DNA of 64,000 nt from Buxus sempervirens (Eukaryota > Streptophyta > Magnoliopsida > Buxales > Buxaceae). This document shows, in pieces, positions 21,671 through 62,253 of the stretch. A program made the position numbers and the translations under genes. The notes beneath the pieces were generated by a model. The model did no database searches, was not told where the DNA came from, and saw only the letters and a list, made by a program, of their open reading frames with translations. Within the stretch, counting starts at the first letter, position 1. Every line of letters starts with the position of its first letter. The stretch lies in contig OX387185.1 in assembly GCA_947561395.2 (NCBI GenBank), positions 19,184,366 to 19,248,365 on the forward strand, in the 5' to 3' direction.

Positions 21671-21671
21671 C

Positions 21672-21684
21672 AAAGAGGGGCAGT
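21672..21684 (+). other. TatB polypurine tract
   Basis: AAAGAGGGGCAGT directly precedes the TGTAGACACC start of the 3' LTR. TatA has AAAGAGGGGGCAGT in the same place. Confidence 0.85.
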
Positions 21685-37660: not shown

Positions 37661-37765
37661 GTTGATCCGGCAACTCAGGTCGGATCAACAGAGCCTTATT
37701 CATAGCCGGCCAAAGATGCCGGATACACTGAGCTATGTGTGTAACTGGCATCTCAAGCCGGCTAC
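37661..37765 (+). repeat. Second palindrome trio of the 35814-38830 LTR
   Basis: 37661-37689: GTTGATCC.. arms around AACTCAG. Next, about 37703-37725: TAGCCGGC/GCCGGATA. Third, 37741-37765: GTAACTGGC/GCCGGCTAC. The layout matches the TatB leader trio at 12602-12703, including the AACAGAG phrase after the first member. Confidence 0.7.
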
Positions 37766-38871
37766 ATTGCCAAAATGCCATTTTTGCTATTTTGTGATTT
37801 TGTGCTATTTTCTTGATGTGTTTGATCAATCCGAATGAACCAGAAGGGTTTCCGGGTCACCCGGAAACCCAAGATGGGCCATGGACCGACCCGATCCAAT
37901 TTGGTTTCCAGTGGGCCTTCCAACGGGGCCCACCAAGCCCGACAAACTTACTTTTTCTAAATCAAGATAATTTAACTGAACGAGTGGGCCACACCATTGG
38001 AGGCCCACCAAAGCCCAACTTGGGAAACATGATGCTTAGATTTAGGCATGGTTTGGCCGAGACCATGGGTAGGGCCTGTCGGGCCCACTAAGCCCATTGA
38101 ACCCAACAAACATTAGGGTTTCAAAACCCTAACTCATGAAGCCTTGGGTTTTCACGCCCAAGCCCAGGTAAAGGGCCCCGAGCCCAAAGCTTGGCCCATT
38201 TTGGCATGGATTAAGCAAGATACTCAACAAACTTGGCATCCATCATGGGGGCCCACCCAAGGGCCTGCAAGTCAATCCAGACTCACTTTTGCATGGAAAT
38301 CAAATTTAATCTCCATCTTGAAATTTAAATAAAATTGATTCATTGAACTAAAGCCCGAAGGGTCTCTTAGGCTAGACTGAGGCCCACTAGGGGGTATGTG
38401 GGCTTAACCAAGCCCACCAAGGAATCCGTGGGCCTTCCAACGGGGCTCGCCCAATCCGACTCACATCACTTTAAGCTAAGAAGATAAAATCAAATAAAGG
38501 GACCCAAACCACTTTGGCAGTCCCGCCAAACTTAACAAAATTGAATGCTGGAATAGGAATCGGGTGAGTGAGAGACCAAAGTTGATTCAAACCAGGGAAA
38601 CCTATGGGACCTGTCTTTTGACGGGGCGGACCGGGGTGTCTACGGACTTCCCCGGACCGTAACCGAGAACTTGCTTAGAATCTCAAGCCGTAGACCAAGC
38701 CTTAATAGAAAACTTAGGCACCCAGGTGTCTGCCTGCACCCCATCAGGCAGTGACGACTCCAAACAATCCCGAGGCACGCATCATCATTTTGCATACGCC
38801 TCGTCGTGCGACCGAAATTAGGTGCGCACACCAAGTAGACACTCCACACCTCCATGTACACAGTTCCAGCC

Positions 38872-41787: not shown

Positions 41788-43131
41788 CCACACTTAAAGT
41801 GAAAATTGGGTGGGTGCGCTGACCTTGGGTCCTTGGCGCCAGGTTGGGGGACCCAAATATTTACATGCGCCAAGCTGCCGCTGAGGGGAATAGGTTGGCG
41901 GCAGCTCCCCTGTTTCTCGATAATGATTTTTACTCGCTGTTAAGTCGATCTAGCTATGACTGACCAAAAAATAACCTTCCACAACAGTGAATGTATACTC
42001 CATACATCTCTAACATTTGTTTAAAACCACAACGAATTTAATTCTATTAGGATCATGCTTCGCACCCACAAAATCATTCGTAAAACAATATGCAGTTGAT
42101 AATAATACAATCAACCTCCACTCTCGTCTAAACTCATGCACTCGGTTCAATCAAACGGAGGAAAATCAGTGCTACTCACCTTATTCGAATACCCTCAAGT
42201 TCAGCAACTCCTAGGCTTCGACTGAGCATCAACGGCAGCGATTCTCACTCAAAAATCTCTACCACTCACCTCCGATCCCAAATCCTCCGCCCAAAAGTTC
42301 CAAATCTGATCTTTCGGTTCGAAACGATTGAGATCTAAAACCTGCTGCCACCAAAATCTTTGATAGAAGAAATCTACCACTTTCCTCTTGGCCACTCCAA
42401 CTCATAGCTCACATTCACCTTCTTCTTTCTTCTCGATCTGATTGAGCAACAGCCGCAACTCCTCCTCGACCCTTGCTTTCCTCCACTGTTTCATGAATCT
42501 CCCTTCACATTTGATCGGCCAAACCCCAATTCAACTCAACAAGGACCTATTTATAGGCCGATGGTCGTGCTCAAACGACTTAACTTATTCATGATCCCAT
42601 GTATACTCACCTACACCCTTTCTCTACAGGATCATCCTCTTAACCATTTGATTAAGAACTTGCCACTCCACCAAGGACCTATACTAGCATCTTACCTAAG
42701 AAAAATAATTTGGACATATTATTATTATTCAGCTAAGATTTATAACCATCACTTGCTTTAAATTAAATCCCTTCTCATTTAATTTCTAGATTGCCAAAAT
42801 TGGCCTTTTTAATAATTTCTCCTATTTTATTTAATTATTTTTCTCTAAATAATTCCCTTTTCTCTATTTCTAAGATTTTCCCTTAATTAAACTAATTAAC
42901 AACAAAATCTAATATTTTTAATGTTATTAAAAATTCGGGATTTTACAATTATACCTGGTGAGATTAGGAGGCTTTGATCTAATAGCTTGTCTTGCAGGAG
43001 GAGCTTCATCGGTAGAAGAGGACGGTGCAAAAGATGCCATGGAATCACCAAAGAAGTCAAGGGAAGATAAAAACGGAATGCCTAGGGTGTTTTTGAGCTA
43101 TTAAAAACGTTACAATGACGTTCCCCATGTG

Positions 43132-43293
43132 TTTATATAGAAAAATCGAAAACACAGTAAAAACCACATTTAAAATGCGGTCAAGCTGTGACCGCATAAC
43201 AAATACGGTCATGCTACGCCCGCATTTTCTATGCGGTCATTGCGTGCCCATATAGAAAATGCAATCACTGCCTGACCGCAATATAAATGTGGT
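43132..43293 (-). promoter_or_regulatory. Putative promoter of antisense gene 1: TATA box and GACCGCAT palindromes
   Basis: On the minus strand TATATAAA is at 43139-43132, about 92 bp before the ATG at 43040. Upstream of it (higher coordinates) are palindromes with 5-nt spacers: 43163-43181 (spacer TTAAA), 43189-43211 (TGACCGCAT/ATACGGTCA, spacer AACAA), 43220-43236 (CCGCAT/ATGCGG, spacer TTTCT) and 43275-43293 (decayed). The same arm sequence is in TatA's LTR (60473-60493). Confidence 0.68.
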
Positions 43294-44763
43294 TTTTCGG
43301 AAAAAATGCAAAAAAATGGGGAATTTCAATTTCAATGCTTTCCTAAGCTTCACCTGTCCCTGCTTAAACATATATCATGCAATAGAGGCAAGAAATAAAA
43401 GAGAAAAGAACATAAATGAAGAAAAATGAACCAAATCTCTTTTTAATATATGAATGAAAATTACATTGTTTTTATACAAGAATATACATGTGATATCCTA
43501 ATCTACTCTCCCTCTCCAGGTCCATCCCCACGGCCACGTCCTCTACCACGTCCACTGCCTCGAGATCGCCGGCGCCCAAAGACAAGTGGCACTAGACGAC
43601 GAGCGGTACTACCGGTCATCCTGCCCAAAATACATTGAACATTATACATCATACACAAAGTCACAAGTCTGGCAGTCGGATGATCAGGAGGAACGTACCC
43701 CGAGGTATCCACATCTCTTGCAAGCTCGGTGGCAGGCTCTGCACTCCCACTAGCCACAGACTCAGAGGCAGGAATAGACGCCTTAGGAGTATCGACATCA
43801 GGCCTCGGGTCTACCATGGGCTCAATAGGTGCCTCTTCAATCATAGAAGCATCCCCAGCAGGCTCCATATCGATATCCATCTCAGCGAGCACATTTGGAG
43901 CGGTCTTTGGTGCTGGGGCAGACTTTGGAATGTCCTCGGCAGTGGGAGCAGCGTCATATGTAGTTGCAACCTCTGTTGCTGGCACCTCTGTGAGCCATCG
44001 GGTATGTACCCTCTGGCATCGTAGATGTAGGGCTGAAATAGGGTATATACACCCTAGCAAAAAACTGCAAAAGAGGAAAAGACAAAGAAAGAATAGAGAA
44101 ATAGGTATTTTACCTGCAAGAAGGGCCAGAGGAATCTGCACCCAACTCTGGCCCCCCGGGAAGTAGGGAGGCCACTAATGGCTCGGCACAAGCCAGCCAA
44201 GATAGTGCCAAAAATAAGCAGACCCCAAGCATACCTCCTCGCCCGCGGCAGGTCCCTCCACAAGCTCAGGAAATGCGGGCAGATAGAGGTCGTATCCTCT
44301 GGGAAAAAGCAGGAGCCCATCATCAGAAGGAAGATGAAACGGAATGAAAAAGGAAAAGCTGCATGGCTGGCGGTGTAAGCACCTCATTTTTGCGCTCCCG
44401 GAAGTGCCAGGAATGCAAACCCTAGATAGAAAGTCAAACCCTAAGGGGTGAAAATTTGACTTTTTGATCAGGTGAGAATTGACCATCTTGCTCCATGTCA
44501 GTGAATAGAGGACTTCGATACGGTTCCAACGCAATTGAGTTTGCTCAAATCGGAGTCCAGATGAGGGACTACAAGCCGATCAAATTTGAGAATGAACCGA
44601 AAGTTGACTTTTTGCTGAACCCCGAGCTAGGTGTTTAGCCCAATCCCAATGGATAGAGGACTTCAATACGATTCCAACGTAATTGAGTTTGCTCAAATCG
44701 GAGTCCGGATGAAGAAGATATGAGCAGTCAAAGCTAGGGGCATTATTGGAATTTTAGTGATGC

Positions 44764-44859
44764 CACGTGTGCACAAGGAGTGCTCGCATGGGATGCCACG
44801 TGTGCACATGGGGGCTCCACATGGGATGCCACATGGACCCACTGCATGCTTCACACGTG
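44764..44859 (+). promoter_or_regulatory. Three CACGTG G-boxes in Tat-like LTR
   Basis: CACGTG at 44764-44769, 44797-44802 and 44854-44859, the first two within a direct repeat (GGATGCCACGTGTGCACA). The sister LTR has CACGTGGC twice at 36201-36228. The upstream palindromes of the sister copy are absent here. Confidence 0.6.
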
Positions 44860-44871
44860 TCATCTCCCACA

Positions 44872-45085
44872 AACCCTTCATCTTCCCATTAACCCTTTAT
44901 CTTCCCAACAAAAACCCTTCATCTTCCCATTAACCCTTTATTATCTTCCCAACAAAAACCCTTCATCTTCCCATTAACTCTTCATCTTCCCATTAATCCT
45001 TGAACTTCCCCATAAGACTCTTAACCTCCCAAAAAGACTCTTAACTTCCCCATAAGACTCTTGACTTCCCCATAAGACTTTGGCT
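44872..45085 (+). repeat. Pyrimidine-rich short repeats in Tat-like LTR
   Basis: Repeats of CCCTTCATCTTCCCATTAA and CCCATAAGACTCTTAACTT, in irregular order. Low complexity; no function suggested. Confidence 0.7.
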
Positions 45086-46117
45086 CTTCCCAAGACAACC
45101 ATCCATCTTCCAAGATTTAAAAGGAATTTTTCTCCAAGAAAAAAAGGGCTCCCATTCGAATTCTCCAACCCTCTCTCCCACTTCTCTTGACTTCAAGCTC
45201 TCCAATCTCCTCCATTCGAACACCTCCACTCCAGTTCCATTCTCTCTCCCACTTCTCTCCTCCATCTCTTCCATCTCCTAAGCTAATCCCACATCTCCAA
45301 CACTCTCAACCCTTCCTTAACACCCCCCAAACTCACCTTCAAGACTACTCTATCCATCTTTTCTGATATCCTTCTTGATCTCCATCACCTTGAAACTTGA
45401 AGGAGACCATGAGCTACTATTGGTGCTGGGGAAAGAGAAGCTCCAGCCACTTTGGTGCTTCAAGGGGGGCTCCATACACTCCAAGAAAGGACTAAGGACC
45501 CCAAGGTAAGGTTTCCCTTGGTGTCTTGTTTAACATATAGGAGAATGAGCTCATTTGGAACATGTTAGGTTACTTTAAACCTTGTATGATATTCTCTTCT
45601 TCTTCTTGAGTGTGCCTTTGTTTTCTTCCTCTTCCCTTCTTCTCATGTCACCATTAAAGTAGTAAAATCCCATGGTAAGGGGAGGTTTTCAACCAACTAA
45701 AAGGGAAGGTGAGAGGTTACTTTTCACATGTTTTAAAGGTCTCTTAGCTACGGTTTTTCTATTTGAATAAGGGAGTGTGTTCCCTTCTCTCTTCTCAGCT
45801 ATTGTACCCCCTTTAAACCCCCCATTATCCTTTCTTCTTAATGGCTTTTTTCTTTACATTAAGGTTTGCTGTTTTTTTTTGTGTTATGGGTGTTATAAAG
45901 CATGCTTGCTTGAGGTAAAACTCTCCACATGACTATCTTGAAACGCATGTTCCCCGTACCCCCTCCTTCCATGGTGTTCTCGGCTTTTACTTTGAGGTGA
46001 AATGCATAGTCTCTCTCCCCTCCCTAGGAACCTCTAATACACACCCACTTGAATCCCCATACCATGTTCCTTCTCCCCCTTCCTTTCTACTGTTTTGTGT
46101 ACCCCAAGCATGCCCCC

Positions 46118-46322
46118 TGTTGAGGATTCTCCAGAATCATCTCCTGATTCTTAGCAATCCTCCTCTCAATTACAGTTTACCTAAACTATAGTAACTGTTC
46201 CTTGATTGTAGAGATATTATTATTGTTTCCTTCTTACTGTAAAGCTATACGTGTAAACATCTCTCTATAAATAGAATACACGCTCCACCCCTAAAGGTGT
46301 GGTGGTTTCACAAACCTTATCA
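46118..46322 (+). repeat. Ale-like 5' LTR (205 bp)
   Basis: It starts TGTTGAGGATTCTCC and ends ACCTTATCA. A TATA box (TATAAATA) is at 46266-46273. It reads identical to the 3' LTR. Confidence 0.95.
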
Positions 46323-46334
46323 TGGTATCAGAGC
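46323..46334 (+). other. Ale-like primer binding site, tRNA-iMet type
   Basis: TGGTATCAGAGC directly abuts the LTR end with no spacer. Confidence 0.93.
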
Positions 46335-46390
46335 CTTTTCTGGATTGATCTCCATCTAGTTTTTTTTTTCGTTTTCCTCATCTCTCTTTC

Positions 46391-49300
46391 ATGGCCGACC
46401 TCCTCTCCTTCAATACCATGGTTCACATGGTCACCATAAAGTTGTCTTCTACCAACTATTTACTGTGGAAAAGCCAACTTGTCCCCCTTCTTGCTTGTCA
46501 AGATTTTCTTGGTTTTGTTGATGGGTCGTACCCCTCTCCACCTACCACCATCTCTGATGACTCTTGCATTGGTTCTTCCCTACCTAATCCAAAGTACTTG
46601 GAATGGAAAACCATTGACCAACGTATCCTTAGCCTTCTTCTCTCTTCTCTCTCTGAAGAAGCTATGGCTGCAGTTGTAGGCCTCACCACCTCCTATGATG
46701 TTTGGACTGCTCTTGAACGTGTCTTCAGTCATGGCTCCAAGATGCGTGAGCTTCGTCTCAAAGATGAATTGCAGTTAATGAAGAAAGGATCCAGAACTGT
46801 TGCTGAGTTTTCTAGAGATTTCAAAAAGCTTTGTGATCAGCTCATGACCATAGGCCGTCCAATGGATGATGTTGACAAATCCCATTGGTTTCTTCGTGGC
46901 CTTGGGACTGAATTTGCTGGGTTCTCATCCACTCAAATGGCACTCACACCGCTGCCCTCTTTCACTGATCTCGTGCCTTTGGCTGAAAGCTATGCACTAT
47001 TTCAAAAATCTCTTGAAGAAACCCCTCTGACTTCTGCTGCTTTTACAGCCACTCAGTCTTCATCTGGTCATGGTCGATCAACTCGATCAAATGGAAACCG
47101 ACAGACTCATGGTCGTTCAAATGGTTCTTCTTCTGGCCATTTCAACAAATCCACTAGTTTTGGTCGGTCTCGTCGTTCCTACACACCTCGTTGCCAAATC
47201 TGCAAAACTGAAGGTCACACTGCTGACAAGTGCCGGAATCGTTATGATTGTTCAGCACCTTCTGCTCAACTTGCCGAAGCATTTCAAAGTAGCTGCTCTC
47301 TCTCTAATGACCAGCTCTCTGATTGGTACCTTGATACTGGTGCCTCTGCTCATATGACATCAGACCTTCAATCTCTGGAATCTCCTAAACAATATGTTGG
47401 TAAGGACAGTGTTATTGTGGGCAATGGGGCCTCTTTACCCATCTCCCACACCGGTATTGTTCGTCTCTCTCCCGATCTTCATTTATGTGATGTGTTAGTT
47501 GTCCCTCGTCTTACTAAAAACCTTTTATCTATTAGCAAATTAACCTCTGATTTCCCATTTCATATCACTTTCACTGACTCTTCCTTTGCTATTTAGAACA
47601 AACTCACAAGAAAGGTGGTGGCAACCGGAAGATGTGATGGTGGGCTTTATGTACTGGATCGTGGCCTTTCTGCTTTCACTTCTATCCTCAATAACTCTGC
47701 TCTTAAGGCGTCATATGACTTATGGCATGCACGTCTTGGGCATGTAAACCCATCTATTATTTCCTTATTAAATAAAAAAGGCCAACTTTCTCTTACCTCT
47801 ATATTGCCTAATCCTTCTTTGTGTTCTACATGTCAACTTGCAAAGAGCCACAGGCTCCCGTTTTCTCCAACCAATGCTCGATCTGACACCATTTTGGGTC
47901 TTGTTCACTGCGACATTTGGGGTCCTGCACCCCTCAAGTCCACAACTGGTTGTTCTTATTATGTTTTATTCATAGATGATCATTCTCGTTTCACTTGGCT
48001 TTATCCTATGAAATTGAAATCTGATTTCTTTGATATTTTTCTTCAATTTCAAACATTTGTTGAAAACCAACTCTCTTGCAAGATTAAAATCTTTCAAAGT
48101 GATGGTGGTGCTGAATTTCGCAGCACTCGTTTTCAGTTTCAACTTCGTTCCTCTGGCATTCATCATCAAATGTCTTGCCCCTATACTCCAGCCCAAAATG
48201 GGCGTGCAGAACGCAAGCATCATCATGTGACTGAAATGGGTCTTGCCCTGTTATTTCACTCTCGGGTTCCTACTTGTTATTGGGTTGATGCTTTCAGTAC
48301 TGCGGCTTACATCATTAACCGGTTGCCCACACCACTTCTTGGAGGCATTTCACCTTTTGAACTTTTGCATGGTAAGGCCCCTCATTACATTGTTTTTCAT
48401 CCCTTTGGTTGTCGGGTTTATCCTTATTTACGTGACTATACTCCTAACAAATTCTCCCCACACAGTGCTCCCTGCATTTTTTTAGGATATAGTCCCTCCT
48501 ATAAAGGTTTCCGCTGTTTAGACCCGCTCACCTCAAAAATTTATGTTACTCACCATGCAAAATTTGATGAAACCCATTTTCCTCTCATGCCCTCTTCCCC
48601 AAGTCAACCCCTCACGTCCTTACAACTCTCTAGCTTTAGTGAGCCTACTACCAACCCTCAATCTAGCCCACCCAATCTGGTCCCACTGCCCTCAAACACT
48701 TTGTCCACCTCATGTTTGCATGGTTCCAGTCCATGTCGCCTATGCTCTCATCATTTTATTGAGCCCATGCAGGTTGCAGCAGATGGATCCAGCTTTGATG
48801 TTCCTAACTCCAGGCCTGCATCATTGCTGCCAGCCCAAAGCACCAGTGAAGCCCAACGTGCATGTGCAAGTATTGATCCAAGCCCACTGTCTTGCATTCC
48901 TTCTTCTGCAGGCCCTTATCTTACTGAAGCCCAGCATCCCATGCAGCCCAACGAGCTAACTTCATCTCATGCACCATTGCTTGTACCAGCTCAAGCCCAG
49001 CGTGCATTACCTTCTTCTAGTTCAGCCCATGCTCCAGCATCTTGTCAAGATCCATCTAATGGTGCCTCTACCACTCAGGCAAATCAGATTATTCCCTCTC
49101 ATCCAATGATTACCAGGGGTAAAGCCGGCATTTTCCGCTCACGTCACCCTGCCTATCTTAGTCAGCATTCCACTGGTCTCTTGCATGCTTTGCTCACTTC
49201 CTCTGAGCCTCGGGGGTTCAAATCTGCTGTGAAGCACCCCTCCTGGCTTGCTGCTATGGATGACGAAATTAAGGCTCTTCATGACAATCATACTTGGGAT

Positions 49301-50761
49301 CTTGTTCCACGTCCTTCAAATACAAATATTGTGGGTTCGAAATGGGTTTTCCACACAAAATATCTCTCTGATGGATCCATTGATCGTTTTAAAGCTCGTC
49401 TCGTCGCCAAAGGCTATACTCAGCTGCCTGGTCTTGATTACACAGACACTTTTAGCCCTGTTGTCAAGGCTTCCACTGTTCGTGTTGTCTTATCCCTTGC
49501 TGTTGCTCGTAGTTGGCCCCTACGTCAACTTGACGTCAAAAATGCCTTCCTTAACGGTATTTTACAAGAGAATGTGCACATGGAGCAGCCTCCTGGTTAT
49601 GTTGATCCCCGGTTTCCTAACCATGTCTGAAAACTCAAGAAAGCACTATATGGGTTAAAACAGGCCCCTCGTGCCTGGTTTCAGCGTTTCAGTTCCTTTT
49701 TACTGAAACTTGGTTTTTCTTGCAGTCGTGCTGACACCTCCTTGTTTGTTCTTCATCGTCAACAACACTTTATTTATCTTCTTTTATATGTTGACGATAT
49801 TATTCTCACAGGATCTGATTCATCACTTCTCAACAATTTTATTCGGCAACTTCATTCCGAGTTTGCAACAAAAGATTTGGGCTCTCTCAGTTACTTTCTT
49901 GGACTTGAAGCCACAACAACTCCGGGTTGTTTATTTCTTAGCCAAACCAAGTATGCACGTGATGTTCTAGCTCGTGCTCAGCTTTTGGATTGCAAGCCTG
50001 TCACCACCCCCATGGTCGTTGGACAGCATCTATCTTCCGAAGGCCCTTCCTTTGAAGATATTACTCTTTATCGTTCTCTTGTTGGTGCTCTTCAGTATCT
50101 AACTATCACTCGACCTGATCTTGCTCACTTAGTCAACTCAGTTAGCCAGTATTTTCAAGCAGTTAAGCGCATTTTGTGCTATGTCAAAGGCACTATTCAC
50201 TTTGGTCTTACTTTTACAGCCTCTCCTTCTCTCAGTATCACTGCTTACTCAGATGCTGACTGGGCCGGATGTCCTGATACTCGCCGCTCCACTTCAGGTT
50301 ACTCGATTTATCTTGGTGAAAATCTAGTTTCCTGGAGTACCAAGAAACAACCTACTGTTTCTCGATCCAGTTGTGAATCTGAGTATCGTGCTCTTGCTTC
50401 TACTGCTGCAGAGGTTCTTTGGTTACAGCATCTTCTTCGTGATCTGCATATCTCCACATCATCTTGTCCTCTTCTCCTTTGTGACAATCAAAGTGCTGTA
50501 TTCTTAAGTTCAAATCCGGTTTCTCATAAGCGCTCGAAGCATATTGACCTTGATTATCATTTTCTTCGGGAACTTGTAGTTGCTGGCACCATTCGTACAC
50601 AGCATGTACCCTCATCCTTGCAAATTGCTGATGTCTTCACCAAGAGTGTTTCTCGGTCTCTCTTTGTCTTCTTCAGATCCAAGCTTCGCGTTTGCTCTAA
50701 TCCCACGCTTAGCTTGCGGGGGGGTGTTGAGGATTCTCCAGAATCATCTCCTGATTCTTAG
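46391..50761 (+). pseudogene. gag-pol: Ale-like copia gag-pol, two in-frame stops
   Basis: One frame from ATG 46391 to TAG 50759-50761. Gag has a CCHC-like knuckle (CQICKTEGHTADKC, near 47195). Protease WYLDTGASAHMT is near 47330. Integrase has H-H-C-C (HARLGH ... CSTCQLAK), then [15 protein letters not shown] and NGRAERK. RT has YVDDIILTGSD near 49790. RNase H has SDADWAG, SCESEYRAL and KHIDLDYH. Domain order PR-INT-RT-RH is copia-type. The stops are TAG 47594-47596 (expected Gln) and TGA 49628-49630 (expected Trp in HVWKLKKALYGLKQ), both C-to-T type. About ten codons are missing in frame near 50145 (VSQYFQAVKRIL). The last 37 nt lie in the 3' LTR. All catalytic residues I checked are intact. 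Confidence 0.93.
50716..50724 (+). other. Ale-like polypurine tract
   Basis: GCGGGGGGG immediately before the 3' LTR, still inside the pol frame. Confidence 0.75.
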
Positions 50762-50929
50762 CAATCCTCCTCTCAATTACAGTTTACCTAAACTATAGTA
50801 ACTGTTCCTTGATTGTAGAGATATTATTATTGTTTCCTTCTTACTGTAAAGCTATACGTGTAAACATCTCTCTATAAATAGAATACACGCTCCACCCCTA
50901 AAGGTGTGGTGGTTTCACAAACCTTATCA
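50725..50929 (+). repeat. Ale-like 3' LTR (205 bp)
   Basis: Identical by eye to the 5' LTR. Confidence 0.95.
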
Positions 50930-51366
50930 ATCCCCCACTCTTTGTCACCACTTCCACACCATTCCGGCATGCTCCACCACCCCTCCAAGTATGCCATGTC
51001 CAGCACACATATGTACACGAATGTAGCATGCTGGGTTCTTACTTAATCACACATCCTTTGTATATGTACTTGATCACACACATACACTTACACTGTAGTT
51101 TAAGCATATCTAAAAAGTGTTTGTTATGTGATGTTTAGTTGCTGCTTCGTGATGTTAGATGATGTTTAGTTTGCTGTTTTGATGATTAGTTGCTGTTATG
51201 TGAGGTTTTAGTTAAGTGTTTGTTAAGTGGAATGCATGGCCTGGCTGCCAAGGGCTTGGGGCAAGGCCCCTAGCCTCCTTCCCCTCCCCTTGGTTCCAAA
51301 TACACTCGGAAATGGTCATGAGTGGGTTATTCCCCAATCCCCAGTATCACCTAGGGCCTAGGGGTA

Positions 51367-51429
51367 TCCGGCAACTAAGGCTGGATCACCTAGGGCCTAT
51401 GTGTATCCGGCAACTAAGGCCGGATACAC
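51367..51429 (+). repeat. Two palindromes with AACTAAG spacer in Tat-like LTR
   Basis: 51401-51429 has 11-bp perfect arms (GTGTATCCGGC) around AACTAAG. The copy at about 51365-51386 has one changed arm base. The position in the LTR corresponds to the trio at 37661-37765. Confidence 0.75.
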
Positions 51430-53133
51430 ACAGAGATATAATTTTTGTGTATTTTGATGTTTCTTGCCGAATTTTAGAGTGATTTGAACCGAATCAAATA
51501 AACCAACAGGGTTTCCAGGCCACCCGGAAACCCAATTTGGGACTTGGACCAATGTCCAACTCGGAATACTCGTGGGCCTTCCAACGGGGCCCACCAAGCC
51601 CAATAAACCCTAAAGCATGCAAAATAAACAAGCTAAGTAAAGTGAATTAATCGAACCAGATGGGCCAAGCCCAATGTGGCCCATCCGAAATTTGATACAT
51701 GGAATTGGTGTATTTAAATGCGTGGTTTGGCCAAGACCCCGGGCAAGGGCCTATCGGGCCCACCAAAGCCCACTAATCAACCCAAGTTAGGGTGTGAGCC
51801 CTACACTTCTAGAACTTAGGCTTTCAAGCCTAAAATTGGACTATGGGCCTCAAGCCCAATGACCAATCCACCTTGACAAACTTAAGTAAGATAAAAATCA
51901 AAGATACTTTGGCAACCATCATGGGGGCCCACCAAGGCCCGCAAACCAAGGCCGACCCACTTTTTGCATGAAAGCTACTTAACCCTGGAATTAAACCTTT
52001 AAGTAAAATCAACTAACTAAACCTAAACCCAAAGGGCCTCTTAGGCTTAGACAGAGGCCCACAGGGGACATGTGGGCTTAACCAAGCCCACCAGGGACAC
52101 TGTGGGCCTTCCAACGGGGCCCACCCAGTCAGACTCAGATCACCTAAATTAAGCAAAGATAAAATCAACTAAAGGGACCCACACCACTCAGGTGGTCCCG
52201 CCAAGACTTAACTAAAATACATGCTGGATTAGGAATCGGGTGAGAACCAAGTAGAAAGCTGACTCAAACCAGGGAACCCACGGGACCTGTCATCCGACGG
52301 GGTGGACTGGGGTGTCTACGGACTTCCCCCGACCACAATTGAGAATCGACTTAGAATCTCAAGCCACAGACCAGACTAATAGACAATACTAGGCACCCAG
52401 GTGTCCGCCTGCACCCCATCAGGCGGTGGTGACTCCGAATTACCCCGTGCCGCGTTTCCTACGCGCGTACAGGCGGCAATCTAGCCGAACCCTCTCTCCA
52501 GGAAGGTCTCTCTCAACCAGGTCAAAGACAATCTAGGTCTCCCCATATCCCAAGCCTCCGGGGGCACCACCTCATATCCAAGAAAGGCAGCAATCTCCGC
52601 ATCATCTGGCCTCACCATCACAGGGATAATATCTCCAGACATCCCGATCCCGGTGATGATAGTGAAATCAGACAGCCGAATCCCAATCTCTATATCTGGG
52701 AAATGAAAGCTCAGCGTCTCTAAGAAGAACCTCTTGAGCATCGCCGCAATAAGAGCTCGATCCAAATGCACGCCTGGGATGGTGATAAAGTGGCCAAAAC
52801 CAAACAAGCCCAGCTCCTGGCGGAAGGACGAACTACAGCCTCCAAGGGATCTAGTGAAGTGGCCCAACTCCCCCGATAGTGGGATAGAGGATACACCAAA
52901 GGCATATCCGCCCTAATACAGGCTGAGAGATGAGTCCTCAAGCCATGTAGTAGGTCGGTATCCCTAATCTGTGCTGTGATCGCCTCAGGGACCTCAACTC
53001 TAGTCTCTGACTCCTCGCCGCCTTGACCCCTACCATGGCCTCCACCACAGCCTCCATCTCTGCCTCTACCTCAGTGCTTGCCACGGCCCCTACCCCGGCC
53101 AGGAACCTCAACTACCGGCTAAGGAAACAAGTT

Positions 53134-53978
53134 TGTTAAGTTTATATTGGCATTTTATGACATGGAAGCATTTGATGATGTGGCATTTATTTTTAAATTG
53201 TATTTTTCAGGTTGTTATTTTCTGACCAGATATTTTGATGTGAAACTTTTGAAAAACTCGTAGGTTGTTTTTCTGATAAGATATTGGTTAACATCATTTA
53301 GTCTTATCTCTTTGAAGTTTGAATTAATTCTTATCTCTAAGTTAACAGAGATTTAAATTAATTCTGATTTCTCAGATATGATATGCATCTCTTTGATCTG
53401 ATAAATATTATCCAATTAAGAGATTATCTTTTCCAGATAAGAAATTTCGAATCTGGAAAAACAATTAAGAGAATATCTTATCTGTGCCTTATTAGTTGTA
53501 ACAGTGTTACAAAATTTAACAAATCTGTTGAGTGTTTTTCGGGTTATAAATATGAACGTGAGTTTGATAGTTAACTTAACTCTTTTGGACGTTCAAGAAC
53601 AGATTGATAAGGATTATTTTATGTTATCATTCTTCGGGAGAAGACAAATTGCATATTGAAGGGAGTTCAATCATGCATGCATAAGTCGAGGGGGAGCCTT
53701 GCTACACTCAGTAGATTGAAGGGAGTTCAATCTAGTTTAAAGTCGAGGGGAGCTCGCTGAACAAGATCCTAAAGAAGATTCTACACATTGGCAACAAATT
53801 CAAGAGGGAGTCTTTTACTTGTGTAAGACCACATTGGTGTATGTAATCGTTTTCATCTTTAGTGGATTGTTCATCATCTGGACGTGGTTCCGAGGATTAG
53901 GTTAATACCGAACCTCCTTAAAAATCTTCCTGTGTTCATGTTTTATTATATCTTAGCATGACACTAACAGATCTAACA
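53134..53978 (+). repeat. SIRE-like first LTR (845 bp)
   Basis: It starts TGTTAAGTTTATATTGGC and ends CACTAACAGATCTAACA. Complete compared with the other two copies. Confidence 0.93.
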
Positions 53979-53980
53979 TT

Positions 53981-53992
53981 TGGTATTGGAGC
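53981..53992 (+). other. SIRE-like primer binding site, tRNA-iMet type
   Basis: TGGTATTGGAGC, two differences from the common plant site, 2 nt after the LTR end. A second, nearly identical site is at 57165-57176. Confidence 0.85.
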
Positions 53993-54039
53993 GGGTCACT
54001 AATATTTTTTTTTGGTGAGATTTTGGGAAAAGATCTATT

Positions 54040-55847
54040 TTGCAGGAAATGGATGGTATGAAGGAAGGAGGCTCAGTTTCACGTCCACCACTCCTGGATG
54101 GAACAAATTATTCATACTGGAAAGCTAGAATGAAAGCTTTCATTAAAGATATTGATAAACGGGCTTGGTTGCATTCACAACCAGAGAGCAAGAACAACTT
54201 GCGGTTCACAAAGAGAAAATTGTAGTTTCTGATTCTAGCAGTGATGATGATGATGATTTGAGTACTGAAACCATTCAGGAAATGTACAAGAAAATGTATG
54301 AGAAGTGGATCTAGGTTTGTGAAATGAACAAATCCTTGGAAGCTCAAGTTGTCGAACTCCTTAAAGAAAAGGAGAGCTTGAAAAAGACTGCAATCAACCT
54401 TGAAGATCTTCTTGATAAAAAGGAGCAGAAAGTGCAGGACCTCAGAATTGAGTTAGAAAGAACTCAAAAGAATATTCAGATGCTGAACTCAAGTACTGGG
54501 AAACTCAATCATGTATTGTCTCTTGGAAAGGTTCATGGTGATCATCATGGAATTGGCTTTACGGGGGAGAACTCTTCCTCAAAAATGACCTTTGTGAGGT
54601 CTTCTTCAACATCAGAACCACACATGATGTTTGGTAAGAAAACTAAACCCTCATATCAGCCAAAGAAATTTGTTCCTATTTGTCATTTTTGTAGCTTGCC
54701 TGGCCATATTCGTCCTAGATGCTTCAAATACTTGAATGCTATTAGGAAAGGAATGAATGTTAACATTTCAGGAAGGCTATCCAAAAGGAATGAGTATCAA
54801 TCTGCTGGTATTAAAAAGGTTTGGGTAAGAAAGTCAAATCTCAAATGCTTTGTTCCTTATACTTCTTTGACTTGTGCTACTGACTCATGGTATTTTGATA
54901 GTGGCTATTCTAGGCATATGATAGGGAACAAAGACATTCTTGCAGATTATCAAAGTACTTTGTTAGGACAAGTTACTTTTGGTGATGGTGTCAAAGGACG
55001 AGTTCTTGGCAAAGGAAACTTAGATATAGAAGGATTTCCCAGGCTAAAGAACATACTACATGTGGAAGGACTAAAGGCCAACTTGATAAGCATTAGTCAA
55101 CTCTGTGATCAAAACTTGTTTGTTCGGTTCACAAAGAACAAATGCTTTGTTTTTTATGAAGCTGAAACATGTGTGCTGAACGGATACAGATCTCCTAATA
55201 ACTGTTATACCTTGTCATAACCACACACATGTCATAAAATTTCTGTAGATAAAACTGAATTATGGTATCAAAAGCTTGGGCATTTGAACTACAAAAATCT
55301 GATCAAGATTGTAAATACAGGTTTTGTTCGAGGAGTACCAAAGCTGGATCACAAACAACCTGGAATATGTGGATCATGTCAGATTGGTAAACAGCAGAAA
55401 TCTACTCATAAACCATTACAACAGATTTCTACAGCAAGGGTACTTGAGTTACTTCACATGCATCTTATGGGCCCAATGCAGTTAGCAAGTATATTAGGAA
55501 AAAGTATATCAGGTATGTTTGTTATACATCATCTCTTGAACCTAAAAGTGTTATAGAAGCCCTTCTTGATGTTTTCTGGAGTAATGCTCAAGGATTACAG
55601 TATTATACATGATAGTTTGACTATCTATTGTAATAATACTAGTGCTATTAATATTCCTAAGAATTCAGTTCAACACTCAAGAACTAAGCATATTGTCATT
55701 AGACACCATTTTATTAAAGAGGTAGTTGAAATCAGAACTGTTGTTCTAGAACATGTTTTAGCAGAAAATCATCATGCTTATATATTTAATAAAGCTCTTG
55801 ATGCAATAAAATTTGAATCCTTGAGGAAGACCTTAGGTTGTGCATGA
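54040..55847 (+). pseudogene. SIRE-like gag-pol remnant: gag, protease, partial integrase, RNase H end
   Basis: ATG at 54049 or the upstream in-frame TG start gives the copia gag N-terminus (RPPLLDGTNYSYWKARMKAF). Most of the gag core is then missing and the frame shifts near 54200. A coiled-coil segment (54330-54520), a CCHC knuckle (CHFCSLPGHIRPRC, near 54685) and protease with WYFDSGYSRHM (near 54890) follow. The start of integrase (LWYQKLGHLNYKNLI; CGSCQIGKQ, near 55265-55400) then jumps straight to the end of RNase H (CNNTSAINIPKNSVQHSRTK, HHFIKEV, near 55630). The integrase core and all of RT are deleted, so it could not make enzyme. Confidence 0.85.
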
Positions 55848-56745
55848 TGTAAATACTTAGAATAGGATCAGATTTCAGATTGACAATGTTTCATATTTTC
55901 GATAGTCGATTTTTAATTCTTTAATCTGAATATCTGAGTTTTGATATATATTGATCTTGATTTTCAAGCCAATCAACTAGTGCACAACAGCATATATTTT
56001 TCTAATCTGAATGTCTAAGTAGAGTACAACATGTGATTAGTACATTTTGAACAACATCTGGATTTGATCTTTGGTATAAAAAAAAAATTGTAAGTTCGGA
56101 AAAAGCTACCCGCACTTTGTGCGAAAGCTATCCTTGAGTAATCTGGGCCTATGTATCACAAATATGTAGAGGAAGATCTACCATGAGAAAAAAAAAAAAA
56201 AAGCTGCCTCAGTGTCAAAGTGAAAGCTACCGAAAAAAAAAAGACGAAGAAAAAGAAAAAGGGGGCCAATATTGAATTCTCATGTTTGTTTCACCATGTC
56301 CTGCTTTCCACTGTTGGAAATATCAAGAAGATCAGACACAAAAAGATTGTTGCTACTCACTCACACACTATTGGTTTCAATTTTTGCTCAGTATATCTCA
56401 ATGTCAGTATACTTCAGTTATAGTCTTAAATGTTGACTTTGGGAACTGAAGTATTGATTGTTCTGACATTATGATCTCATTTTTAGTGTGTTACAGTGTA
56501 TGCTTTGTTGTCTTCACTCTTGCACTTCATTCTTATTGAGCTTTATTTCTTGAGCAGGGTATTCATCTCAAATTTTGTCTATGTTTTTGTCTTGCTTTCG
56601 CATTTTGTGTGCCAAAATAAGGGGGAGAAAATAACAAACTGAACTGAACTAAACTGTTAACTGTTTTGTTTAGACAGTTTAAAAATTCTTCTTGTTTGTT
56701 CTTGTTTAAAAATTCTGCTTGTTTGTTCTTTTGTCAACAAATGCC
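55848..56745 (+). other. SIRE-like 3' internal region
   Basis: AT-rich, with poly-A tracts and no conserved frame. In SIRE-type elements this region is long and sometimes holds an envelope-like frame; none is visible here. Confidence 0.65.
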
Positions 56746-56757
56746 AAAGGGGGAGAT
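56746..56757 (+). other. SIRE-like polypurine tract
   Basis: AAAGGGGGAGAT directly before the second LTR. Confidence 0.85.
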
Positions 56758-57162
56758 TGTTATGTTTATATTGGCATTTGATGACATGGAAGCATTTGAT
56801 GATGTGGCATTTATTTTTAACTTGTATTTTTCAGGTTGTTATTTTCTGACCAGATATTTTGATGTGAAACTTTTGAAAAACTCGTAGGTTGCTTTTCTGA
56901 TAAGATATTGGTTAACATCATTTAGTCTTATCTCTTTGAAGTTTGAATTAATTCTTATCTCTAAGTTAACAGAGATTTAAATTAATTCTGATTTCTTAGA
57001 TATGATATGCATCTCTTTGATCTGATAAATATTATCCAATTAAGAGATTATCTTTTCCAGATAAGAAATTTCGAATCTGGAAAAACAGTTAAGAGAATAT
57101 CTTCATGTGTTCGTGTGTTCTTATTCGTAGAATAACTTAGTTTGACACTAACAGATCTAACA
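56758..57162 (+). repeat. SIRE-like second LTR, internal deletion (405 bp)
   Basis: It matches the first LTR at both ends but lacks about 440 bp. The break falls at ATATCTT/ATCTTCC-like sequence present at both edges of the missing segment, suggesting deletion at a short match. Confidence 0.88.
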
Positions 57163-57164
57163 AT

Positions 57165-57328
57165 TGGTATCGGAGCAGGTCACTAATTTTTTTTGGTGAG
57201 ATTTTGGGAAAAGATCTGTTTTGTAGGAAATGAATGGTATGAAGGAAGGAGGCTCAGTTTCACGTCCACCACTCCTGGATGGAACAAATTATTCATATTG
57301 GAAAGTTGGAATGAAAGCCATCATTAAA
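57165..57328 (+). other. Primer site and gag start between second and third LTR
   Basis: TGGTATCGGAGC (57165-57176), then an ATG at 57230 and the first about 30 codons of the same gag (MKEGGSVSRPPLLDGTNYSYW). The sequence breaks off into LTR sequence at 57329. Confidence 0.88.
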
Positions 57329-58084
57329 TGACCAGATATTTTGATGTGAAAATTTTGAAAAACTCGTAGGTTGTTTTTCTGATAAGATATTGGTTAACAT
57401 GATTTAGTCTTATCTCTTTGAAGTTTGAATTAATTCTTATCTCTAAGTTAACAGAGATTTAAATTAATTCTGATTTCTCAGATATGATATGCATCTCTTT
57501 GATCTGATAAATATTATCTAATTAAGAGATTATCTTTTCCAGATAAGAAATTTCAAATCTGGAAAAACAGTTAAGAGAATATCTTATCTGTGCCTTATCA
57601 GTTGTAACAGTGTTACAACATTTAACAAATCTGTTGAGTGTTTTTCGGGTTATAAATATGAACGTGAGTTTGATAGTTAACTTAACTCTTTTGGACGTTC
57701 AAGAACAGATTGATAAGGATTATTTTATGTCATCATTCTTCGGGAGAAGACAAATTGCATATTGAAGGGAGTTCAATCATGCATGCATAAGTCGAGGGGG
57801 AGCCTTGCTGCACTCAGTAGATTGAAGGGAGTTCAATCTAGTTTAAAGTCGAGGGGAGCTCGCTGAACAAGATCCTAAAGAAGATTCTACACATTGGCGA
57901 CAAATTCAAGAGGGAGTCTTTTACTTGTGTAAGACCACATTGGTGTATGTAATCGTTTTCATCTTTAGTGGATTGTTCATCATCTGGACGTGGTCCTGAG
58001 GATTAGGTTAATACCGAACCTCGTTAAAAATCTTCCTGTGTTCATGTGTTATTATATCTTAGCTTGACACTAACAGATCTAACA
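57329..58084 (+). repeat. SIRE-like third LTR, lacking its first 89 bp
   Basis: It begins at TGACCAGATATTTTG, equal to 53223 of the first LTR, and runs to the AACA end followed by the AAGTT duplication. Confidence 0.9.
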
Positions 58085-58321
58085 AAGTTGAAAGAGAAAA
58101 GATCAGGGTGATGAATTTTAAGAGAGAATTTGAATTTCAGAAGGGTTAGGGTATACCTCTGGGGTTGCCTCACGCGAACCCTCAGAAGGAAGATCTGGGA
58201 CATCAGAATCGGAGTCCCTCTCTGCTCTCGAAGAAGAGGCCACGTCAGCAGGATCCCTTCGAATCCTAGAAGAAGAGGGCTCATCTGCGGGATCCCTGGG
58301 AGTTGAACGAATACGAGCCAT

Positions 58322-60298
58322 CTGCGAACTCAAATAAGGGAGATGATTTATTATTTTCGTAATTTTTTTATTGCTTTTGTTTTGCATTTTAATGGAGTTT
58401 AATTGTTTGCAGGAATGCTTCAGAAGTTCCTGACCAAATCAGGAGTCAACTGAAGGTCTTTATTTTTCTGTTTTCAAAAATATATTTTGAGAAAATTTTA
58501 TTGTTTTAGTTGTCTTTGCTTTAACCAAGAAAATATATAAAAATTATATATAAGAAGTGCAGACCTCTTATATATTCTTTTTATATGATAAAGAAAAAAA
58601 AATGTGTTATTGATATGTCTTTTAAGATGCCTAATCGTATATTTTGCTTGGTTTCAGGACAATCAAGGCATACTCAAACTAGCACGAAGATGCAAATTCT
58701 GAAAATTATATGTTTTATGCCAAGATGCTTTAACATCAATTGAGTCAAGAATTGATTCATGCCAAGCCATATAAGTGTTCAAATCAAGTGAGTAAAATCC
58801 AAATCTGAACAAGCATGGCAGCACCGCAAGCCAAAAGCTAGGGTGGAGATAGCACAAGTAAAATAGTTGTAAATGCATTCAAGACCTAGAAATTTCAATA
58901 AAGACAAAGATGTTCCAGTAGTTCATGTCAAGGAAAGGCCAATGGAATAACATTCAAGAGCAGATTCAAAGGAAGAAATCATTGATGCTGTGAAACAAAT
59001 TAGGCAAAGCATGGTTCATGCATATTTTCGGTCTAGTACTGGCAGAAACAAAAATCAGAGTAATACAGGCAATGGGCATCAGCAAACAAGCAAATACAGA
59101 AAGTTTTGGATTCTAAATGCAAGCAGAAAATTTCCCAAATTTCAACTTGGTTCGGATTACTACTTGAGTGTGGAAACAGAAGTCAAAACAAGATACAAGC
59201 AAGGCAACAAGAAATTGCAAAGCAAAGGGGATTTCGGCCACTCAAGAATTAAGTTCCTTAAGTCAGATTCGGTGGCTCATAGAAATTGCAAAGCAAAGGG
59301 GATTTCGGCCACCCAAGAATTAACCATTTAAATGCATTCAATCAAGAGCAGTGAAATAGTACTGCAAAATTCATAAACACAGGTGAATCAAATCAGCCAA
59401 ATACAATTTTTCAAAAAAGCAAGGTTTGGGTCTGATCAAGAGCAGAAGCAAAACCAGTCAATCATGGAACTAAGGTGCTAAATTTCGGATGAAATAACTT
59501 GAAGAAAACATAACAGTTAGTAGCTGGAAAGAAGCGAGATTTCAAAGAGAGAAATCAAATCGTGCCTCACTGGAATGACAAAACACACTGAACAGCAAAA
59601 GCTCGCTGTCGTCGAAGGATGTTTGAATTGTCGGAGAGAAGGTCGTCGCCGGGAAAAGAAGTCAACACGGGAGATGCTCACCATCGTCAAAAGGTCGGGT
59701 GTCGCCGCAGAAGAATGAGAGTCACCGGAGAAGACGTGCGTCGTCGAGAGAAGCTTAAAGACTGGAAAAAGGTATGCGGTCGTATGGGTTTGAAGAAGAA
59801 CTGTAGAAACATGAGGTAAAATGAAGAGGGCCGGTCATGTCTGTTTTTAAGTCGAGCCCTAGAAAACCGCATTTAAAACACGGCGTCTAATGACCGAAAA
59901 GCTAATACGGTCATAGCGCGACCGTGTTTAAATTGCGGTCATCACCTGACTGCAGTACAAATGTGGGCAACCCAGAAAATTTCATTTTTCATGATTTTCT
60001 CCATACTTTTCAAGAGATTAATGTCCATATTAATTGTAAATTGCAAGAATTGTCACTTTATCCACTTTTGCTTTAAAATTTGTCTCAAATCTCACTTCAT
60101 AGCCACGAGTGCTCAGTGAGACTAGAGAGGAGAATTTGCCCCTTAAGGTTAGGTACTTTTCAGCAAATCCTCCACACAAATACTTCTTCCAAAATTTCCC
60201 TTTAAATCCTTGCAAATTGCAATTAGTTGGTCAAATCTCAAAAAGTGCAGTTTATGGGTCTTGTTGCTCTCTACTGGTAATTGGTTCCAATTACCAGC
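58322..60298. other. TatA region upstream of antisense gene 2
   Basis: No gene can be supported. A 45-bp direct repeat (AAATTGCAAAGCAAAGGGGA start) occurs at about 59211 and 59281. The end (CATAGCCACGAG at about 60100) is shared with the TatB 3' region. Plus-strand TTGCAG|G and GTTTCAG|G sites near 58411 and 58657 could be splice acceptors of a sense transcript. Confidence 0.5.
59866..59970 (-). promoter_or_regulatory. Decayed GACCGCAT palindromes upstream of antisense gene 2
   Basis: Cores: ACCGCAT + TTAAA + ACACGG (59866-59884), TGACCG/CGGTCA (59891-59913), GACCG..TTAAA..CGGTC (59920-59940). Weaker than those at 43163-43293, but the same arm word and 5-nt spacer. Confidence 0.55.
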
Positions 60299-60312
60299 AA
60301 AGAGGGGGCAGT
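60299..60312 (+). other. TatA polypurine tract
   Basis: AAAGAGGGGGCAGT directly before the TGTAGACACCCC start of the 3' LTR. Confidence 0.88.
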
Positions 60313-60472
60313 TGTAGACACCCCAAATTGCATTACAAGATGAGAAAATAATTTAAAATATGTAATTGGGATTTGAAACAGGTCAAAAAAGTGTAAAATT
60401 TGGTCAAACATGCAATGACTGCATTTTATCTACGGTTTGCTCGTGCCTGCAGTTGATATACGATCATGCCGT

Positions 60473-60493
60473 GACCGCATTATATATGCGGTC
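60473..60493 (+). promoter_or_regulatory. GACCGCAT palindrome in TatA LTR
   Basis: Perfect 8-bp arms GACCGCAT/ATGCGGTC around TATAT, about 200 bp upstream of the TATA box. Two decayed copies precede it (from about 60414). Confidence 0.72.
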
Positions 60494-60857
60494 GTGGGTT
60501 TTTTTTGAGCGAATTCGTCATTTTTTGATTTCTGAGCCTTATCTACACTGAAATCTCTCTCTAGGAGATTCGAATCCTCTTTCTTATCCTCTTTGGTTTA
60601 ATGGATTTACATTAACTCCTTTTTTGAAACTCAATTGGAACATTCTGGAACCTTATTTTGACAAACCCTGGACCAACCATGCCCCTGGATTTGCCTATAA
60701 ATAGAGGGCCTCTCCTCAAGCAAATGGCTGAGAATCTGAAGCTTGAAGAGCTCCAAGTGAAGAAGGAAACCCCTGCTTCTCTACTTTCTCAATCCAAGTA
60801 AGTCCCTTTTTTCTTTTATTTTCTGTTTTTAATTCTAGAGATAGTCTAATCTTCTCC

Positions 60858-61305
60858 ATTTCTGTAGAATAAGGCCTTCTTATGTTTGTATCTCCAAACC
60901 TGCCTCCAAGTACCTCAAGACTCCTCTCTAGCCGTAAAACATAAAGAGAGAGCTAGGGGAAAAGGGAACAGGTGGATTCTTAGAATAGAACCCTATAATC
61001 TGTTTTTTTCTTTTGTAGAATAAGGCCTACTTCTTGTTTGTATCCCCAAACCTATCTCCAAGTACCTCAAGACTCCTTTCTAGCCATAAAACGTGAAGAG
61101 AAAGCTAGGGGAAAGGGGAACAGGTGGATTCTTAGAATAGAACCCTATAATTTGTTCTTTTCTTTTTTTGTAAAATAAGACCATTTGATTGTGTTTGTAT
61201 CCCCAAACCTATCTCCAATTACCTCAAGACTCCTCTCTAGCCGTAAAACGTGAAGAGAGAGCTAGGGGAAAAGAGAACAGGTGGATCCGTAGGATAAGCC
61301 CATAT
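60858..61305 (+). repeat. Triplicated segment in TatA LTR, period 152-157 bp
   Basis: Three copies of the stretch from TGTAGAATAAGGCC to GAACAGGTGGAT; the CTAGCCGTAAAAC-type phrase falls at about 60929, 61081 and 61238. TatB LTRs have one copy of this stretch. Confidence 0.85.
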
Positions 61306-62253
61306 GTGCTGTAATTTGTGATATATGATTTCTTTTACTATTCTGTTCATGTTTTAAAAGTTTTATTTTGAATCTGGAGGAATCCTATGGATCCATACTG
61401 TTTATAGCATGAGATCCCCACTTCCTCCTACAGTTTTGGTTTTTCACACATATTGCACCTAGATCACTGTTTTCTTGATTTTGGTGATATTTGGCTAGGA
61501 TTCTGGATCTACCATGATCTATATGGTAGATCTGAAACCAAAAGCTTGAAAGTAACCTATAGGGTTTCATGATGTGATTTTGAAGATGTTTTAATCTTGG
61601 AGAGAGGATCCTATGGTTTAAACTCTCCCTTTTGATGTTTGTTTTTCATCAACATGGGTTGATTGGGGTTCTATCTCTCCACTAATGAGAGATCTGGATC
61701 AGAACTGTACCCTAAAGAACTTTACTCTTCAATATTTTAATCAAGAGATTTCAATATGGTTTTTCAACCTTTTAATGGTTTAGCCTAAAGCTAGTTTTTC
61801 AGGTTTCACTTTAGGAAGGTTTTCTTTGATTTTTATCTCAATTTTATTTCAATCATGAAACCCTTAGAATGGTGTAATCATATTGAAGGTTCTGAATTAA
61901 TGGGGCTATTCATATGAAAAACCGTACACTTTTGTCACTTTTATGATTTTTCCTTTATTAAGCAAGCTTTCTTTATTTTTAACATAAACAATACCTGGTA
62001 ACCACCTTGTGTGGATGAATAGGGGTGCCTAACACCTTCCCCTGTTCATAAACTAATCCCTTTACCCATCTCTGGTTGTTTTTTTGTTTTGTATTTTAAA
62101 ATAGAGTTATTTTTACTCTAATTTCTGTCTTTTTCATTTTGGTTTGATATTTTGGTGTTCATTCATACATAAACAGAATGGTGGCGACTCCTTGTTTTAA
62201 TTAATCCCGTGTGATGATTAAGAACTCATTAAATCTATTTTCCATGTTTTACA

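Follow-up and report, generated by a model that had tools for sequence, protein, structure and literature searches.

Palindrome arrays in 28-bp register at the LTR and antisense genes of a Buxus retrotransposon, and the concerted change of their half-sites between subfamilies

Arrays, genes and promoters of the host element

The 64-kb window of Buxus sempervirens DNA analysed here (OX387185.1, assembly GCA_947561395.2; hereafter the window) contains a long terminal repeat (LTR) retrotransposon, the host element, with gag, pol and LTRs. Downstream of pol lie two minus-strand genes, gene 1 (DUF7745) and gene 2 (plant mobile domain, PMD). A 21-bp palindrome, GACCGCAT-N5-ATGCGGTC, is found at three sites of this element, namely the LTR, gene 1 and gene 2 (Table 1), and its half-sites change together between subfamilies. 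Allowing ≤3 mismatches, the palindrome has 8 matches in the window, as compared to 0.07 expected from 100 dinucleotide shuffles, and 7 of the 8 fall at these sites, which agrees with the original prediction of such palindromes at the LTR and upstream of both antisense genes. That prediction described single palindromes with a 5-nt core; the palindromes and the core are real, but they are organized as tandem arrays in which each palindrome together with a 7-nt spacer gives a 28-bp period at all three sites. The exact copy is the last LTR unit, GACCGCAT-TATAT-ATGCGGTC (60473-60493).

The same organization extends across the assembly (676.5 Mb), on which all genome-wide searches were run. Specifically, the palindrome with a TATAT core (≤3 mismatches) occurs at 1077 + 1121 sites, versus 1 in the control. 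Strong palindromes lying 16-60 bp apart form 315 pairs, 293 of which are spaced by 28 bp (182) or 56 bp (111), and each of 20 loci retrieved for holding an exact palindrome has two or more units that keep the 28-bp register (≤5 mismatches of 16 being allowed in the partner units). The junction between units is equally rigid: ATGCGGTC-N0-30-GACCGCAT has 110 sites (control 0), with a spacer of 7 nt in 49 of 50 among the matches listed, the exception itself holding a 7-nt one, and ATACGGGC-N0-30-GCCCGTAT has 545 sites (control 1), with a spacer of 7 nt in 50 of 50 among the matches listed. A mixed junction, ATRCGGTC-N7-GCCCGYAT, was found at 478 + 454 = 932 sites (control 0). Among the first 100 mixed junctions listed there are 21 neighbouring pairs 8-15 kb apart, 18 of them on the same strand and often about 9-10 kb apart; an abundant LTR subfamily with mixed arrays is suggested. 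A palindrome search of IMG/VR returned 14 contigs, each with one isolated palindrome and no array, which we take as chance.

With respect to promoters, the distance from the gene-1 TATA box to the nearest palindrome is exactly 22 nt in all nine copies measured, and the minus-strand TATA box predicted beside the gene-1 palindromes is present. The LTR palindrome likewise lies upstream of a TATA box, as proposed. Across 22 LTR arrays scanned, the array ends 164-221 bp before the TATA box, and 187-210 bp before it in 20 (the scan accepted 120-260 bp and missed the LTR arrays of copies L041 and L058). On contig C1, a GGGC pair is located 222-244 bp upstream of 4 of 8 DUF7745 matches, among the matches listed.

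The pol region of the host element (30085..32319, plus strand) reads RNase H, additional RNase H (RVT_3), integrase. An additional RNase H between RNase H and integrase is the criterion for the Ogre/Retand type of the Tat clade in the accessible text of Neumann 2019 (PMC6317226), which also reports a PMD open reading frame (ORF) in 57% of Ogre elements, making it typical rather than defining. Because the additional RNase H occupies this position, the host element fits the Ogre/Retand part of the Tat clade, and the PMD ORF typical of Ogre elements is present as well. The earlier name "TatA" itself has no basis in our analysis. A 5' LTR of the host element was not identified within the window. 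Around the 3' LTR, tandem repeats of 152-bp units (60863-61286) and 79-bp units (62254-62622) are found downstream of the TATA box and directly past the LTR end, respectively.

Both antisense genes had been predicted to encode PMD proteins, which holds for gene 2, whereas gene 1 encodes a DUF7745 protein. The latter assignment follows from the copies, since in 9 of 10 (the exception being L046) the sequence passes from 42948 straight into 34984-34986. The gene-1 piece of the window matches DUF7745 above the Pfam cut-off (E 6.5e-8), and its resemblance to PMD is weak and below the cut-off (E 7e-4). In the short L049 gene-1 piece DUF7745 is below the cut-off, and the Pfam search did not report it for the L043 piece. 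Gene 2 extends leftwards from near the 3' LTR to 43503. Its PMD (PF10536) was found in the window (E 2.7e-8, just under the cut-off), L045, L049 and L052, and above the cut-off in one of these four (L052, E 2.1e-11). Insertions disrupt both genes in the window. Searches of 20 proteins (antisense ORF pieces, parts of both genes) gave no match to Transposase_28 (PF04195) at E up to 1, and none to DUF1985. None of 8000 candidates scored against the L052 PMD ORF was retained in a protein search, and a PDB search with the window PMD piece gave no match.

Gene 1 is represented genome-wide by 4671 candidate loci. Among the best 150 scored, the 149 besides that of the window are 86-92% identical over the matched part, and most are without stops, with open frames of up to 607 aa; this identity and these open frames suggest recent amplification. 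In their accessible text, two papers call the role of antisense genes of Tat-clade elements unknown (PMC7264820, PMC11963269), and a third says the same of PMD function (PMC5418596).

Table 1. Positions of arrays, genes, domains and insertions in the 64-kb window
Feature	Position	Strand	Basis or remark
LTR U3 array, 3 units of 28 bp	60417..60493	+	palindrome scan in register
Gene-1 promoter array, 5 units of 28 bp	43162..43294	-	palindrome scan in register
Gene-2 array, 4 decayed units, one 27-bp step	59865..59968	-	palindrome scan in register
Gene-1 TATA box TATATAAA	43132..43139	-	22 nt from gene-1 array
LTR TATA box CCTATAAATA	60694..60703	+	200 bp beyond LTR array
3' LTR of host element	60313..62254	+	begins TGTAGACACC after purine-rich tract; homology to other copies stops ~62253-62265
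Gene-1 start (MASFAPSSSTDEAPPARQ...)	42948..43040	-	ORFs and copy comparison
Rest of gene 1, frame broken in window copy	33248..35026	-	DUF7745 (PF24924) 34679-35026; coiled-coil-like pieces 33248-33868
Gene-2 first coding stretch (MARIRSTPRDPADEPSSS...)	58121..58438	-	present too in L045, L049
Gene-2 PMD region (PF10536)	52484..53070	-	Pfam search
Gene-2 C-terminal stretch	43503..44141	-	similar ORFs in L043, L045, L046, L049, L052
RT_RNaseH then RVT_3	30085-31191	+	domain search
rve (integrase)	31264-31767	+	domain search
Nested element 1	7863..24546	+	LTRs 7863-10769 and 21685-24546
Second-class arrays of element 1	8439-8541, 22261-22324, 12602-12704	+	5' LTR, 3' LTR and 5' LTR-gag leader, respectively
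LTR-3 solo LTR, inserted, other family	35814..38830	+	39-bp-class arrays 36405-36468, 36549-36651, 37663-37765
Second LTR-3 copy	44373..52440	+	second-class array 51364-51427; holds copia-type element 46118-50929
LTR element inserted in gene 2	53223..58084	+	repeats 53223-53978 and 57329-58084, 98% identical

Half-site change between subfamilies

To compare arrays among elements, 16 gene-1 copies were fetched besides that of the window (10 + 6), each with part of its 3' region. The tables cover eighteen elements in which one or more arrays were found, providing usable pairs for gene 1 and LTR (n = 9), gene 2 and LTR (n = 10), and gene 1 and gene 2 (n = 8). L043, with just 2 units recognised, was kept out of the array tables. 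L055/56 contributed gene 1 alone, L056 being without a recognised array; the LTR arrays of L047 and L052 are in opposite orientation and were left unpaired; and in L028 the LTR is present and the gene-2 array was not recognised.

The arrays of the gene-1 copies sort into a GGTC group, a GGGC group and intermediates. Between two subfamilies the half-site shifts from ATGCGGTC towards ATACGGGC, with the change located at positions 5 and 9 in the LTR and gene-1 arrays and, more weakly, in the gene-2 arrays. At position 9, the fraction of G in the LTR array correlates with that in the gene-1 array (r 0.88, permutation P 0.003) and in the gene-2 array (r 0.79, permutation P 0.009), and the majority state agrees between gene 1 and LTR in 8 of 9 elements, the exception being L045, and between gene 2 and LTR in 9 of 10 (L063/64 is tied). 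At position 5, the fraction of A gives r 0.82 for gene 1 and LTR (P 0.004), 0.53 for gene 2 and LTR (P 0.06) and 0.64 for gene 1 and gene 2 (P 0.04). Co-variation of the LTR and antisense sites, which had been set as the test of a link between them, was thus largely observed.

The shift was also measured as total variation between groups. When the GGTC and GGGC groups were compared, with L045 and L047 omitted as intermediates, the values at positions 5/9 were 0.54/0.74 for gene 1, 0.50/0.75 for the LTR and 0.35/0.42 for gene 2, a shift that is partly by construction because the arrays themselves served to define these groups; the other half-site positions gave ≤0.33, and T4 and CGG6-8 were unchanged. 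Groups were therefore also taken from a tree of the LTR flanks (window, L046 and L023 versus L045, L049, L054, L060, L062 and L024, with their gene-1 and gene-2 partners), this time including L045. Here the values at positions 5/9 were 0.56/0.49 for gene 1, 0.57/0.70 for the LTR and 0.32/0.46 for gene 2, and the remaining positions reached at most 0.25, 0.35 and 0.29, respectively.

The letters outside the half-sites behave differently. When one array is compared across groups, identity over core and spacer is 0.58 for gene 1, 0.56 for gene 2 and 0.64 for the LTR, versus 0.43 between different arrays of one element. Because core and spacer letters stay specific to each array, the arrays were not copied from one another, and the same substitutions must have arisen in separate arrays that each kept their own cores and spacers.

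A second array class and the insertions around it

Other elements carry a second class of array in place of the 28-bp class, made of TTGTATCCGACA palindromes with a 39-bp period. Nested element 1 of the window is an example: its LTRs have no GACCGCAT array and instead contain TTGTATCCGACA-N5-TGTCGGATACAA palindromes in 39-bp register. Genome-wide, GTATCCGACA-N5-TGTCGGATAC (≤2 mismatches) has 14,975 sites (control 0), and the half-sites of this class themselves vary, with CCGACA and CCGG forms. Both classes keep CCG-N11-CGG, and their periods of 28 and 39 bp differ by 11 bp, roughly one helical turn, from which we infer that a regulator may keep its rotational phase across the two classes.

Array class agrees between LTR and leader (the region from the 5' LTR to gag) in all four elements recognised with both, pairs that were chosen by eye (28-bp in L026 and L039; 39-bp in element 1 of the window and L044). 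Similarly, among 14 LTR-3 copies that have both end modules, arrays stand at both positions in 9, at one in 2 and at neither in 3, and the class agrees in all 9 (28-bp in L024, L027, L029, L033, L036 and L038; 39-bp in the window, L026 and L050). The U3 start of seven LTRs (L026, L028, L030, L032, L035, L041 and L042) is 88-95% identical to that of element 1 (window 7863-8408), yet their arrays are of the 28-bp class; these LTRs look recombinant, with a U3 start of the element-1 type followed by the array and promoter found in the window-LTR family.

Several further insertions were noted. The two LTR-3 copies were considered as a single element around gene 1, a reading ruled out by an empty site in L039, which shows the first copy to be a solo LTR. 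The copia-type element inside the older LTR-3 copy has 205-bp LTRs that are 100% identical, and is for that reason probably a recent insertion. Upstream of the element 1 gag, a 41-42-bp tandem array of ~13 imperfect palindromes (GTCTAAAA...TTTTAGAC; 15759-16334) is distinct from both the 28-bp and 39-bp classes. Finally, a small LTR-flanked element with ~260-bp repeats lies at 38831-41255, and a truncated copy of it is found in the pol region (25804-27138).

A candidate regulator, rival explanations and known systems

We favour, with modest confidence, a reading in which the arrays are sites of one dimeric, element-encoded regulator at the LTR and antisense promoters, probably the product of an antisense gene. 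That one trans factor is common to the arrays is likely, and that it is encoded by the element is moderately probable; for its being DUF7745 or PMD we see an even chance. By analogy, it might activate or un-silence rather than repress, a suggestion that we make tentatively. Mechanistically, a dimer would bind each palindrome, and the array would be filled cooperatively, as the rigid spacing suggests. The regulator would act on the promoters of the LTR and of both antisense genes, and array binding would activate or un-silence the regulator's own gene and the LTR in trans, reaching deletion and solo-LTR relatives that have arrays and lack the genes.

An element-encoded binder is likelier than one from the host because two subfamilies in one genome share their host factors yet differ in their arrays, and the antisense products are candidates because their own promoters carry arrays. 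Moreover, solo LTR-3 copies retain arrays without antisense genes, as expected of a trans-acting factor. Methylation could also matter, since each half-site has a CpG within its conserved CGG, which is lost most often through C-to-T or G-to-A changes.

A number of observations weigh against this reading. The nine gene-2 arrays viewed have no TATA box in common (TTAAAAA stands beside the array in 4 of 9: the window, L023, L046 and L064), so that the proposed gene-2 promoter site is sound as a decayed array and weaker as a promoter. The gene-2 arrays also shift least, with position 5 barely above other positions, and the position 9 correlation between gene 1 and gene 2 is non-significant (r 0.52, P 0.10). 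L045 is discordant, its gene-1 array being mostly T and its LTR and gene-2 arrays mostly G. Mixed junctions outnumber pure GGGC junctions genome-wide (932 versus 621), and position 9 is therefore not a clean two-state character. In addition, the G-majority LTRs form one clade of the tree (support 0.994), which makes the GGTC/GGGC contrast essentially one switch and the permutation P values too small, as independence is overstated. LTRs with equal G and T blur the contrast further (L028 at 886 inside the clade, L030 at 3200 outside it). Lastly, the antisense promoters seen include none with a second-class array, and the link between LTR and antisense genes consequently depends on the 28-bp class.

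Among the alternatives, binding by a host transcription factor or its paralogues, with the subfamilies having switched paralogue and the antisense proteins acting elsewhere, is unlikely but deserves the most weight. The near-invariant CGG palindrome resembles a site at which a dimeric plant factor could bind, our analysis ties the arrays to no protein, and arrays also occur in copies lacking the antisense genes, such as solo LTR-3. Such a factor would, however, require at least two to three host paralogues sharing the CCG-N11-CGG geometry, and the concerted move of separate arrays in one element would need a further reason. We consider it improbable that the repeats are inert, having spread through duplication, template switching or gene conversion, with common descent accounting for their agreement within an element. 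LTR pieces do recombine, as the element-1-type U3 starts joined to window-LTR-type arrays and promoters illustrate, and the single clade of G-majority LTRs fits descent; nonetheless, the changes fall at the same two half-site positions in arrays whose cores and spacers remained distinct, T4 and CGG are under constraint, and the distance to the TATA box is fixed, behaviour not expected of inert repeats.

Escape from host small RNAs that target the arrays in trans, an arms race with RNA-directed DNA methylation (RdDM) with or without a binder, seems quite improbable as the source of the concerted change. It has been proposed for VANDAL target regions in the accessible text of PMC10398659, and the CpG in the conserved CGG would suit it, but RdDM escape alone predicts free divergence and not a conserved CGG, a constant 28-bp period and two repeated substitutions. 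Least credible of all are RNA hairpins in the genomic RNA, serving packaging or dimerisation. The sense transcript should include all three arrays, and RNA with inverted repeats can fold; in mixed arrays, however, the halves agree within a unit in 88/142 cases at position 9, versus 301/486 between units, and in 101/204 versus 418/679 at position 5. On this absence of compensation between unit halves the hairpin reading was rejected.

With a defined 28-bp site, a half-site alphabet and two natural specificity variants, the function of the antisense genes and of PMD becomes testable. Literature searches for DUF7745 together with retrotransposons, and for anti-silencing in LTR elements, found nothing, and shared LTR/antisense arrays are not described in the accessible text of the literature found, in a search that left aside subscription papers and outside preprints.

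VANDALs are MULE elements of Arabidopsis. VANC, the protein of this anti-silencing system, carries DUF1985, binds its motif and removes DNA methylation. Encoded by the element, it recognises family-specific motifs and acts in trans on other copies (Hosaka 2017, PMC5735166, in its accessible part), and those motifs, like the present arrays, are short, lie in non-coding tandem repeats and diverge between related families. A family-specific tandem motif that changes with the subfamily is thus common to both systems. Unlike VANDALs, the host here is a Tat-clade LTR retrotransposon with gag, pol and LTRs, and its sites are palindromes in rigid 28- or 39-bp register; the candidates are DUF7745 and PMD proteins without a DUF1985 match, for which binding and un-silencing are proposed by analogy. 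If the favoured reading is true, these arrays would add, from an LTR retrotransposon, an independent second example of a regulator that is encoded by the element and co-evolves with its tandem target motifs.

Similar in gene order are Grande (gene23), RIRE2 and Retand (TRP28), Tat-clade elements with additional antisense ORFs that, as in the Buxus element, lie between pol and the 3' LTR (PMC7264820, PMC11963269). The accessible text of these papers assigns Grande gene23 its own promoter, with a regulatory role suggested, and reports the tandem arrays of Tat-clade elements as variable and of unknown function; it reports no shared LTR/antisense-promoter site or covariation. Retand mostly carries Transposase_28, whereas the Buxus element carries PMD and DUF7745.

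A further system for comparison is that of MAIN/MAIL1/PP7L in Arabidopsis, where PMD proteins are needed to express genes whose promoters contain the DOWN motif (PMC7156037, PMC9899485). The promoter motif that the original prediction mentioned for MAIN/MAIL1-dependent genes, without quoting it, does exist, and in the MORC1 promoter it reads CATGCAGTTT in the available text (PMC9899485), close to the element half-site ATGCGGTT. Of random or shuffled 10-mers, 0.4% match the half-site matrix at least as well as this sequence does at its best (P ~0.004), in a post hoc comparison of one instance. In contrast to the element arrays, the DOWN motif is not described as a palindromic array in the accessible parts of these papers, and MAIN and MAIL1 are host PMD-C proteins whereas Gypsy PMDs are PMD-A (PMC5418596). 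It is conceivable, though we regard it as doubtful, that the PMD superfamily (PMD, DUF7745) comprises sequence-specific, DNA-binding dimeric regulators that originated in Tat/Ogre elements or were spread by them, co-evolve with the arrays of each subfamily and drive antisense gene and LTR, with host MAIN/MAIL1 keeping an ancestral ATGC(A/G)GTT recognition. If true, this could explain how MAIN and MAIL1 find their promoters.

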